Assembly: GCA_019638285.1 (NCBI GenBank)
Contig: JAHBUB010000012.1
Location: 30,253 to 94,252, forward strand
DNA: 64,000 bases
Direction: 5' to 3'
From: Cyclobacteriaceae bacterium
GTDB lineage: Bacteria; Bacteroidota; Bacteroidia; Cytophagales; Cyclobacteriaceae
Both the position numbers and the translations under genes were made by a program. Under the pieces are notes generated by a model. It was given only the letters and a program-made list of their open reading frames with translations, was not told the origin of the DNA and ran no database searches. Shown here one piece after another: positions 32,695-52,233 of the stretch (position 1 is the stretch's first letter; every line of letters begins with the position of its first letter).

Positions 32695-33156
32695 GTCAGG
32701 TAGCTTTTGGTGATACAAACTTGTTATGCAAAGCTTTGGAATTTGTAATGAAGGATTTCATCAAATACACTGAAAATCATACATCAGTAAAGAAGTCCTA
32801 CAAGTATTGCTTTAAGCAAATAAAAGCTGCCCCTACGGGTATTTTAGATATTACCTGGCCATTATTTCTCCGTTTTATAGAGGATTGGGCTTAAAGATTG
32901 ATAAGTCGGGACCGTTTCTTTTACTTTTTTTTGTGAAACGCAGGTTAAATGAAAGGGCTATTGCTCTGCAGAATGCTCAGCAACAATACAGAGTATATTT
33001 CCTACCAATGAGCTCAACTATCGAGTAAACGATCAAATCGATATTTCAAGTTCCGGTGCTCCTACCTTTTCCGGTCAGACCCCAACTGAGGTTCAGGTGT
33101 CTACTTTGAACCTTGAACTTTAAACTTTGAACTTTAAACTTTGAACTTTGAATTCT
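32695..33156. other. 462 bp gap with gene debris and a heptamer repeat
   Basis: Contains a 48-residue frame on the plus strand (32748-32894), a broken stretch around 32935-33120 that reads as protein-like in shifting frames (for example ALQNAQQQYRVYF and later ISSSGAPTFSGQTPTEV), and a 7 bp tandem repeat at its right end. I read it as decayed coding sequence that cannot be assigned to a family. Confidence 0.4.
33104..33152. repeat. Seven copies of a 7 bp tandem repeat
   Basis: Seven units of the heptamer CTTTGAA, with variants CCTTGAA and CTTTAAA, immediately downstream of the gap pseudogene stop. Such a short phase-like array may change length by slippage. It is too far from any start codon to act as a coding switch here. 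Confidence 0.85.
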
Positions 33157-50199: not shown

Positions 50200-50931
50200 A
50201 ACTGAACGGTTTAATCGCGAAAGATAGGGGTTTTACAAGTCCGATTCTACCCTAAAACCAAATAGGATTTACCAAAAATCGGAATTCCCGGACTGTACGT
50301 GCCAGAAGATTCAGGAGTCAAGGATGCTGCCGCAAAACAAGGAAGTCTTAAAATTCGTTTTGGATTGGGCAAACCCCTACGACCATTGATTGCTATCTTA
50401 TACGGTAAAATAGATAGTGACAAAGCTATCAATGTGAAGGTAACAAGTCTGCACGACCAGGCACAAATGCCAAAAAGGAATTGGGTGAGTTCAAATCCAT
50501 TCGAGATACCTTCATTGGATTTCAAGCCCACCTGTATCGGGCACAGGCGATGTGATAGGGATACTAACTGGCGTGCGTCTTCTAGCTGCGAAATGGCATG
50601 TGTGAGACTCGTGCCTAAGTAGTCAGAGGTATTAGTGAAATCAATTATACTTTTCATAGCCATGGGATTCTTCAGTTGCTCCACCCGCAAGCCCTCTAAG
50701 GCTCCTTCTGAATGACGGAGCGGGGTAGTGTGTATTTTATGTTTTCAAAGCAGTCTTTGTAGACCTAAGAGAAATTACTGGAAAATGGACCAAACCAATC
50801 CCAACGTGGAACTTGGTAGTCAATCAATTTATTAACATCTTCGGAGAGCGGTGCAAAATATAAACCCTTTACGCAGTTGCTTAGACACTACCAGGCACTT
50901 ACACACTTTTCTGGGCAGTGTCGCATTTCAC
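50200..50931. other. Gap with overlapping open frames, no recognised gene
   Basis: A 732 bp stretch. Two frames overlap at 50247-50690 on opposite strands (minus, 147 codons from a TTG; plus, 107 codons from a GTG) and neither reads like a known family. Neither has an ATG near its start. It may be a decayed gene; the right part has no frame. Confidence 0.4.
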
Positions 50932-51185
50932 TAGCTACCACGCACCATCGAGGTAGCTACCACGTATCATCGGGTTGGAACCACGCACTCCCAAGTTAGC
51001 TACCTCGTATCATAGCGTTAGAACCTTGCTTCATTTCACCAGCTACCCCGCATCATCGAGCTGGAACCTCGTACCATTTCGGTAGCTACTTCACACCATC
51101 TTGTTAGCTACCTTGTACCATCGCGTTAGAACCTTGTATCATTTCACCAGCTACCACGCACCATCACGGTAGCACCTCATGTCGT
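50932..51185. repeat. Tandem array of 21-22 bp repeats
   Basis: Eleven full units and one partial, each 21 or 22 bases, of the type TAGCTACCACGCACCATCGA. Two flavours alternate: units starting TAGCTACC and units starting TGGAACC or TAGAACC. Units 4, 5 and 6 (50997-51061) recur as units 9, 10 and 11 (51105-51169), so there is a 108 bp higher-order period. The unit length is two helical turns. There is no open frame through the array. It ends 272 bases before the gene at 51458. Confidence 0.92.
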
Positions 51186-51457
51186 TTTTTTATAACAGAG
51201 TATCTTTCCGGTTGCAGGCGCCCCCCTCTCCACCTGCCAGCATGGGGATGGGGCAGACCCACCCGCTCTTGGTTTCAGAGCAGTACTCTCTCAGCCAAAA
51301 GGGGGAATGGGGATTCCCGATTTACCTCCCAGCCACAGAAGATTTGTCGAATAAGAAAAAAATTAAAATATTTTAAAAGTTTTTTCTTATTTATGAAACT
51401 ATTCTACCAGGGTTTTACGTACTTAGAGTATGTTCAACAATTTAACATTTATATGTT
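51186..51457. other. Leader between repeat array and the 240-residue gene
   Basis: GC-rich at first (51220-51345), then AT-rich. It contains the inverted repeat AATAAGAAAAAA / TTTTTTCTTATT (51350-51361 and 51380-51391). No gene is seen. A long leader for a gene of this size is itself unusual. Confidence 0.5.
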
Positions 51458-52180
51458 ATGTCACATGTTAAAAACGCAGCAAGCTACTCTAGGCTAGTAG
51501 ACATCTGCACCGGGTACGGAGGTAAGTATAACCCTGGGCGTCCAACCCTCCAGCTTAAAGCAATGAGAGCTTTGCTCAATGAAGCACAAAGTTCATTGCA
51601 AGATGTTTCACTTAAACAAGATGCGTACCATCGCATACTGAATAAAAAGAGTTCGGCTTTTGACGGACTGGACATTCTGGCGAACCGCGTGATCGGAACT
51701 ATGGAGGCATTGCAAATGCCTGAGGCAACCATTGAAGATGCACGCTACTTCTACAGGCTGCTGGCCGGCAAGCGGGCTACACTCAGACCCCCCATCCCTT
51801 CTGAGGACAGTGATGAGGAGAAGGTAAAAACCCGTGGGTTTCAACAACTGAGTTATGTAGCCAAAGCCAGCAACTTCTTTAAAATGGTGCAAATGGTAAA
51901 TGCGCTGCCGGCTTATATAAGCAACGAGCCCGATCTACAGATTCCGGCCCTTATGGAAAGAGCAGCCCCTTTACAGTCACTCATTGAAGAAGTGGACAAA
52001 GCCAAAGTGGCCTTGTCTATAGCAAGGCTGAAACGCAACCGAATCCTCTACCGCACTAACACCGGTATGGTAGACAATGCCAAACTGGTAAGACGGTATG
52101 TGAAAGTAGCGTTTGGTACGCGTAGCGGAGAAGCCGCTCAATTGAAAGATGTTCGTTTCACTAAACAAAAAGTAAGATGA
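51458..52180 (+). CDS. Uncharacterised 240-residue helical protein behind a repeat array
   Basis: Clean ATG-started frame with higher GC than its neighbours. No signal peptide or membrane segment. The protein is nearly all helical: AMRALLNEAQSSLQDVSLKQ and FDGLDILANRVIGTMEAL near the N-terminus, KTRGFQQLSYVAKASNFFKM in the middle, and a basic C-terminal block RLKRNRILYRTNTGMVDNAK then RYVKVAFGTRSGEAAQLKDV. I have the impression that related proteins of unknown function with a similar YVKSVFG-type ending occur in Bacteroidota, but cannot name a domain. A tandem repeat array precedes it and a strong terminator follows, so it is a single unit. Confidence 0.8.
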   Translation: MSHVKNAASYSRLVDICTGYGGKYNPGRPTLQLKAMRALLNEAQSSLQDVSLKQDAYHRILNKKSSAFDGLDILANRVIGTMEALQMPEATIEDARYFYRLLAGKRATLRPPIPSEDSDEEKVKTRGFQQLSYVAKASNFFKMVQMVNALPAYISNEPDLQIPALMERAAPLQSLIEEVDKAKVALSIARLKRNRILYRTNTGMVDNAKLVRRYVKVAFGTRSGEAAQLKDVRFTKQKVR

Positions 52181-52198
52181 GAACCTTCGCAATCAACT

Positions 52199-52233
52199 AA
52201 AACCTCTGCATGATATCTGCAGAGGTTTTTTTA
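52199..52233 (+). terminator. Terminator after the 240-residue gene
   Basis: AAAACCTCTGCA / TGCAGAGGTTTT with loop TGATATC, followed by further T residues. A perfect hairpin 19 bases after the stop codon. Confidence 0.92.

Follow-up and report, generated by a model that had tools for sequence, protein, structure and literature searches.

The presence of a tandem repeat array in front of a gene for a protein of 240 residues raises the question of whether array and gene form one functional unit and, if so, of which kind. The locus lies within a stretch of 64,000 nucleotides (the window) from the genome of a Cyclobacteriaceae bacterium (GenBank assembly GCA_019638285.1, contig JAHBUB010000012.1, positions 30,253 to 94,252). 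A sequence-only reading had regarded it as a possible cassette of repeat array and dedicated gene. The features at the locus are:

50827..50922, minus strand: insertion-sequence-end-like remnant directly outside the array (recognized by recurrence beside other arrays)
50932..51178, plus strand: tandem array of 21-22 bp units with higher periods of 43 bp and 108 bp (TRF, lag analysis)
51352..51457, plus strand: AT-rich leader that links the array to the start codon and is conserved in other copies
51458..52180, plus strand: open reading frame for the 240-residue protein, basic, all-helical and internally duplicated (group I)
52197..52232, plus strand: Rho-independent terminator of the 240-residue gene (by eye: hairpin, then T-run)

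The array itself was confirmed. TRF reported periods of 21-22 and 43 over 50932-51178, and periodicity reached z = 11.0 at best (lags 12-59), compared to a maximum of 3.99 in 2000 shuffles. Identity amounted to 0.70 at lag 108, 0.60 at lag 43 and 0.46 at lag 22. The proposed super-period of 108 bases is real, its copies, however, are not identical, since lag-108 identity is 0.70 overall and at best 0.88 (over 50995-51054). GC content is 0.506 in the array and 0.476 in the gene versus 0.400 in the window, which agrees with the description of the gene as GC-richer than its surroundings, and the terminator ascribed to it is recognizable by eye as a hairpin with T-run. The array was also rightly held not to be CRISPR: its units are contiguous, with scattered substitutions and without spacers. 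Rfam yielded no match above the gathering score; its sole CRISPR hit in the window (51370-51399, 22 bits versus a gathering score of 45) is located in the leader, outside the array. Leader and gene start (about 51352-51617) share 77-83 % identity with five copies, three from the same genome and two from G017.

The remnant at 50827-50922, which resembles an insertion-sequence end, possibly of IS256 type, is 100 % identical to G000:C23:30185-30280 and 90 % identical to C50:8098-8176, both of which adjoin other array loci. The 96-bp sequence was also matched in G027 and in G032, the latter without a family gene. Its core motif has five exact sites at four loci in the whole own genome (besides the window at G000 C23:30220, C23:93708, C50:8106 and C50:8232), none of them farther than about 140 bp from an array; as the motif was composed after these sites were known, the notable part is its absence elsewhere in this genome. 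The arrays may be insertion hot spots or shelters for this insertion-sequence-like remnant. Tandem repeats of 7 bp were observed as well, namely ACTTTGA at window positions 33103-33152 and TCTTACG, AACCAAC or similar ones at L101, L104, L106, L113, L115 and other loci, where they sometimes flank the gene-array pair on both sides.

The encoded protein had been assigned to no recognized family, and indeed Pfam, NCBIfam and PHROG gave no match to it at E up to 10, including any recognizable transposase or recombinase family. No known DNA-binding domain was found in the family protein, and no solved or viral fold convincingly matched the protein model. The protein is basic and bilobed: the window protein has a pI of 9.91 and a net charge of +15, AF2 models it as purely helical, two of the helices being long (mean pLDDT 89.6), and its N-terminal half is homologous to its C-terminal half (hhalign E 2.9e-10, probability 96.8 %). 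Among 113 family proteins, 90 % have a pI above 9, the median net charge is +10, and near-invariant residues include Y24, P26, R64, Y153, R193, Y198 and Y214.

Contrary to its designation as an orphan, the gene has nine near-full-length relatives in its own genome (3.98 Mb, 85 contigs), making ten copies in all, and this genome additionally carries one fragment (L048). The nine other copies are 31-53 % identical to the window protein, and two of them are damaged (L040 by an internal TAG, L041 lacking a normal start). A gene for a 376-residue tyrosine-recombinase-like protein is located at G000 C26:479-1609, about 1.4 kb from the fragment. Matches were unevenly spread among genomes of relatives (17 of 58, own genome included), and 9 of 392 genomes in a phylum sample matched a 38-member profile (own genome again included). 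A scan of 84,980 species, each represented by a single genome, with two conserved peptides of one branch confirmed 250 relatives, the best 80 of which (L094-L173) constitute the named group II set. Record titles name Bacteroidota for 79 of these best 80; the remaining one is a MAG labelled Neisseriaceae. Their hosts include members of Cyclobacteriaceae, Flavobacterium, Chryseobacterium, Pedobacter, Chitinophagales and Bacteroidales, with Flavobacterium aquatile, F. croceum and Epilithonimonas tenax among the cultured ones. No recurrent partner gene was detected, the commonest neighbour family occurring at 8 of 118 locus entries. At L082, L083 and L084, which come from three genomes of a single family, a polynucleotide phosphorylase-like gene (by eye) lies behind the array, possibly a conserved location.

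The family splits into two branches, groups I and II, by start motif and by the side on which the array lies. An array was called where, no more than 900 bp from the gene, the best autocorrelation z for lags 20-22 or 41-44 was 6 or higher; segments 2-3.8 kb from the gene served as controls. In group I, the array is located upstream at 22 of 26 loci and downstream at none (controls 0/49), whereas in group II it is located downstream at 72 of 79 testable named loci and upstream at 2 (controls 2/112, one of which is the displaced array of L157). A second measure detected arrays at 69 of the 80 named group II loci. Best lags were exactly 21 (28 arrays) or 42 (44 arrays) in the 72 group II arrays and 21, 22, 42, 43 or 44 in the 22 arrays of group I. 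Gene and array thus form a conserved pair with a period near two helical turns and a fixed side. Upstream placement, which the sequence-only reading had suggested checking at each homologue, holds for group I and not for group II.

Several of the loci that failed the test nevertheless carry related signals. Among the seven of group II, L162 and L098 offer less than 230 bp of sequence, L151 and L168 carry weaker lag-21 signals, the array of L157 is about 2.8 kb away, and L138 and L143 are without array, L143 showing a lag-42 signal upstream. In group I, TRF found a 42-bp array within 500 bp of L043, L059 has a 44-bp array 0.8-1.5 kb upstream, L051 has weaker arrays 1.4-1.8 kb upstream, and L049 has none of this period. 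Start motif assignment was corrected by hand in two cases (L076 moved out of group I, L071 moved in), and L040, L041 (damaged N-terminus) and L048 were left out of the alignment and of the association counts. A further twelve loci from the first set were tallied outside both groups; seven of them have a downstream array. Four of these seven are identical to named loci (L058=L097, L066=L102, L076=L111, L077=L094), which leaves eight more divergent loci of the own genus, three with a downstream array by the same test (L063, L065, L067) and five without (L064, L065b, L070, L074, L075). A regular absence of the array from homologues, named beforehand as evidence against a cassette, was not observed in groups I and II, yet five of the eight divergent loci are array-less.

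In the opposite direction, 848 kb of the own genome comprising all ten copies (L040 and L041 included) were scanned for arrays. Ahead of every copy there is an array, whose end is some 180-350 bp from the gene. Nine of these arrays have a best lag of 22-44, and the one at C23:121563 is strongest at lag 14 and contains a 42-bp array according to TRF. Two further arrays with z > 9 and a lag of 42 or 43 have no family gene nearby, C2:96712-97055 (L229) and C23:93370-93698 (L234); the unit type of the latter resembles by eye that of the array at C1:59765. A weaker hit (lag 21, z 6.2) represents the heptamer run at window position 33103, and six other hits, including one immediately behind a family copy, had lags of 12, 14 or 54. 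All ten copies have an array, and two strong arrays stand apart from the gene.

Similar arrays were found beside a second family. DUF6261 (PF19775) weakly matched 1 of 38 family members (E 0.02, not over the Pfam gathering cut-off) and gave no match in the own genome. Genes for DUF6261 were detected in 2 of 198 genomes of the phylum. Of 76 genomes belonging to one family, 6 gave matches, and in 5 of these the cut-off was exceeded. Of 14 loci, 13 were considered (L254, with a match below the cut-off, was left out), and 7 of these 13 have 41/42-bp arrays (z at least 6) upstream (L174, L177, L250, L251, L256, L257, L258). L252 has an array beside a truncated match, L178 a weaker array (z 5.5) and L255 a strong lag of other length (33); L175, L176 and L253, the last with 166 bp of upstream sequence, gave weak signals only. 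None of the 12 loci other than L252 has a downstream array. DUF6261 thus resembles the present family in its length of about 240 residues, its helicity (a model from five sequences is all-helical, pLDDT 80.7) and its upstream arrays, but differs in that homology is unproven, profile comparison giving a probability of 1.9-3.7 % and E of 0.012-0.025.

Unit sequences vary from locus to locus. Circular alignment (EM) of 72 group II-type arrays yielded the consensus WTTAGAAATCTAGCAWCCGCA with 5.44 bits in total. Column-permuted controls reached 2.18 +/- 0.04 bits (maximum 2.27) and random-strand controls 3.89 bits (maximum 4.00); since 5.44 bits exceed both, group II arrays have a degenerate motif in common and a fixed orientation relative to the gene. 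The alignment took in 69 of the 80 named loci, plus 3 others, under a threshold that differed slightly from that of the association count, so that L126, L137 and L139 (z 6.0-6.1) are in the association count and below the EM threshold. Seven arrays with doubtful boundaries (L065, L124, L134, L154, L156, L162, L169) were included in the EM and left out of the later tests on units, RNA and coding. Over 65 arrays, the number of units varies from about 8 to 31, with 13 as the median. Group I arrays mostly lack a match to the group II consensus, and a common strand and motif for both groups was not supported (mean z 0.51 vs -0.16, plus exceeding minus in 15 of 26).

Array similarity decreases with protein divergence (Mantel r 0.46 over 64 loci; maximum of 1000 permutations 0.133), and units change much faster than proteins. 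The proteins of L094 and L096, for example, are 90 % identical and their units clearly different (similarity 0.42), and any recognition would therefore have to be loose. The following were tried on the units and not supported: avoidance of each other's units, of the kind known from plasmid incompatibility, by paralogues with 70-80 % protein identity (unit similarity 0.395 within genomes, 9 pairs, vs 0.429 between genomes, 89 pairs; 0.388 vs 0.386, i.e. no effect, in the Cyclobacteriaceae-like subset), and a 10.5-bp periodicity of conservation inside the unit (equalled by 58 % of permutations). A dyad symmetry of the unit is suggestive only, with 0.365 for a subset, below the 95 % control value of 0.383, and 0.413 for the full set. 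By eye, the group II consensus partly resembles the 23-nt BrickBuilt consensus of Porphyromonas gingivalis as given in PMC4596501.

On balance, these findings are probably best explained by a two-part cassette, consisting of a DNA-binding protein and the two-helical-turn array which it coats, that disperses as one. A strongly basic, two-lobed helical protein would act together with an adjacent tandem array of putative binding sites. As the units approximate two turns of B-DNA (21-22 bp, or 42-44 bp for dimeric units), successive protein molecules could occupy one face of the DNA and might form a local nucleoprotein filament like that of plasmid iterons or of the ParR-parC centromere. We infer binding of the array by the protein, and a role of the filament in holding, marking or organizing a chromosomal site. 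Unequal exchange would homogenize each array while array sequence drifts, the protein tolerating a degenerate motif. Gene and array would spread as one unit, in some hosts presumably inside integron-like cassette arrays.

Joint duplication of gene and array is visible in group II, in three recent pairs; together with the recurrence of the gene-array pair in both groups, this supports the proposed cassette. L144 and L146 reside on two contigs of one genome and encode proteins 98 % identical; their DNA is alike from -75 to +1280/+1217, with array lengths differing and only short, non-collinear matches in the flanks. The common stretch extends from -43 to +1163 in L131/L136 and from -311 to +1403, plus one further shared stretch, in L117/L122. 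In the group I pairs L045/L053, L047/L068 and L043/L044, the DNA match spans the gene, and the array not or in pieces. The right ends of L117/L122 resemble integron attC sites in being palindromic and closing with AACGTT; that of L122 folds into a long imperfect stem. The right ends of L131/L136 close with ACGTT and fold weakly. BLAST matches to attC-like sites numbered 13 in the genome of L117, 14 in that of L126, 1 in that of L127 and 10 in that of L116, and 22, 3, 13 and 9 in four Flavobacterium genomes. No integron integrase scored over the TIGR02249 cut-off in any of 15 genomes (below it, matches occurred in all 15 as well as in all 14 control genomes), and integrase-less integron clusters are possible in these genomes.

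Duplication as discrete units is also what would be expected of a mobile element, in which movement or amplification of the cassette would be the work of its own protein, the array representing recognition or by-product DNA. The multiple and patchily distributed copies (ten in the own genome; 17/58 relatives; 9/392 phylum genomes) and the near-invariant R64, R193, Y24, Y153, Y198 and Y214 are in line with such a role. Nevertheless, this explanation appears unlikely: no transposase or recombinase family is recognizable in the protein, the boundaries compared have no single end sequence in common, and the other copies in the own genome, judging from their identity of 31-53 % to the window protein, are old. 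In addition, 72,556 plasmid and 50,697 phage records searched with the group II member L077 yielded nothing; one relative was found in viral contigs.

Alternatively, the array could be transcribed and its RNA be bound or used by the protein, as in TIGR-Tas systems. According to PMC12045711, TIGR arrays accompany a single gene on either side, and their units, conserved at any one locus, vary between loci; the present arrays are similar in both respects. TIGR-Tas systems have a Nop-domain protein and two variable 8-12 nt spacers per array unit. A Nop domain was neither matched by the window protein in Pfam at E up to 10 nor was it among the matches listed for the family (25 of 66 families weakly matched by 38 members, E up to 1). 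Group II units contain no spacer-like hypervariable block, mean within-array heterozygosity being 0.21-0.52 at every position. With respect to folding, the window array is more stable than shuffles on the plus strand (z -4.1), and z falls below -2 in 28 % and 26 % of 65 group II pieces on the two strands, the medians over these arrays, however, being -0.2 and -0.1. Most of the lowest z values come from arrays with the stop codon as called start, so that the piece folded there probably takes in the gene terminator. Terminator-like hairpins are more frequent immediately behind the gene (24 of 65 loci) than in control windows (12 of 89) and are not commoner after the array (7/62 vs 12/89). On the reverse strand, the stretch separating array and gene shows a slight excess of them (18/65 vs 10/89); window lengths differ in these comparisons. 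A reverse transcript ending between array and gene is therefore possible, although gene terminators are often bidirectional. Considering also the lack of an Rfam match above the gathering score, a function of the array as RNA is regarded as improbable.

Slightly less credible still is the notion that group II arrays encode, or descend from, a gene for a heptapeptide-repeat protein on the opposite strand, even though their period equals exactly 7 codons. Reverse frame -2 has the fewest stops (49 in 4597 codons; 33 of 64 array cores stop-free), but these occur at the rate of independent sites (47 expected, ratio 1.04; a weak test). Its synonymous excess of 1.32 surpasses all 2000 random re-phasings, and that by a second count is 1.38 (P 0.02 versus 250 common column permutations), while the period-3 power of conservation alone is non-significant (10 % of permutations as strong). 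Open reading frames covering at least 80 % of the array core were found on the reverse strand of 35 of 65 arrays, compared to 21 of 65 on the plus strand, so that 30 of 65 are without such a reverse frame. Moreover, the lags of group I (22, 43, 44 bp) and of DUF6261 (41 bp) break the frame. At L172, L135 and L171, reverse-strand open reading frames run through the array, that of L172 consisting of heptapeptide repeats; these may be listed as proteins in the genome annotation. The coding evidence for group II arrays is mixed, and the reading as DNA is retained as the common denominator.

Finally, that the arrays are functionless, slippage-prone intergenic DNA merely near a common gene is very improbable and largely refuted, as the richness of the hosts in 7-bp tandem repeats and the fast drift of the arrays contrast with a phylum-wide association on a fixed side, a fixed orientation in group II and association counts far above control values near zero.

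A two-part cassette of binding protein and coated array, as favoured here, would have consequences beyond the window, since roughly a hundred chromosomal loci in a single phylum, cultured species included, carry the gene-array pair. To our knowledge, plasmid replication and partition are the main settings in which bacterial tandem arrays have been described together with a binding protein of their own encoded next to them. A published link of such a gene to a 21-bp array was not found in the literature searched, with subscription journals and bioRxiv largely outside its scope. It may tentatively be proposed, short of being probable, that an undescribed class of chromosomal elements exists, in which a dedicated protein is combined with its own fast-evolving satellite, the two being passed on and spread jointly throughout Bacteroidota and the locus-specific arrays acting like small centromeres or anchoring filaments, with DUF6261 as second such family. 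If true, this would provide a function for a large unannotated family, perhaps also for DUF6261, and a bacterial model for the lasting fit between a binding protein and a satellite whose sequence drifts.

Among known systems, iteron plasmid replicons combine a Rep gene with tandem iterons of about two helical turns, the unit sequence differing between replicons. The present family likewise has tandem sites of about two turns adjoining the gene, their role as binding sites being putative, but it is multi-copy on chromosomal contigs, the window protein has no Rep family match (Pfam, NCBIfam, PHROG, E up to 10) and L077 is without match in the plasmid collection. The ParR-parC partition centromere comprises a basic protein and an adjacent direct-repeat array, as does the present family. 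Partition systems of this type have an actin- or tubulin-like NTPase gene as neighbour, whereas at the present loci no neighbour family is widespread (8 of 118 locus entries at most). Some family copies have attC-like ends reminiscent of integron cassettes, and relatives of these ends recur in the same genomes; the window copy, in contrast, has no attC-like end visible by eye, and the integrase was missing over the TIGR02249 cut-off in the 15 genomes. TIGR-Tas loci (PMC12045711) also have the array on either side of one gene and locus-specific units, but differ in their dual spacers and unit length. BrickBuilt of P. gingivalis, a dispersed intergenic minisatellite of 23 nt (about two turns), is another dispersed two-turn repeat of Bacteroidota genomes; PMC4596501 describes it, unlike the present cassette, as a MITE with terminal inverted repeats, the hypothetical proteins annotated inside being unconfirmed. 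Taken together, the cassette would not appear to be a full member of any of the known systems tried, and its resemblance would seem to be to an iteron or parC array.
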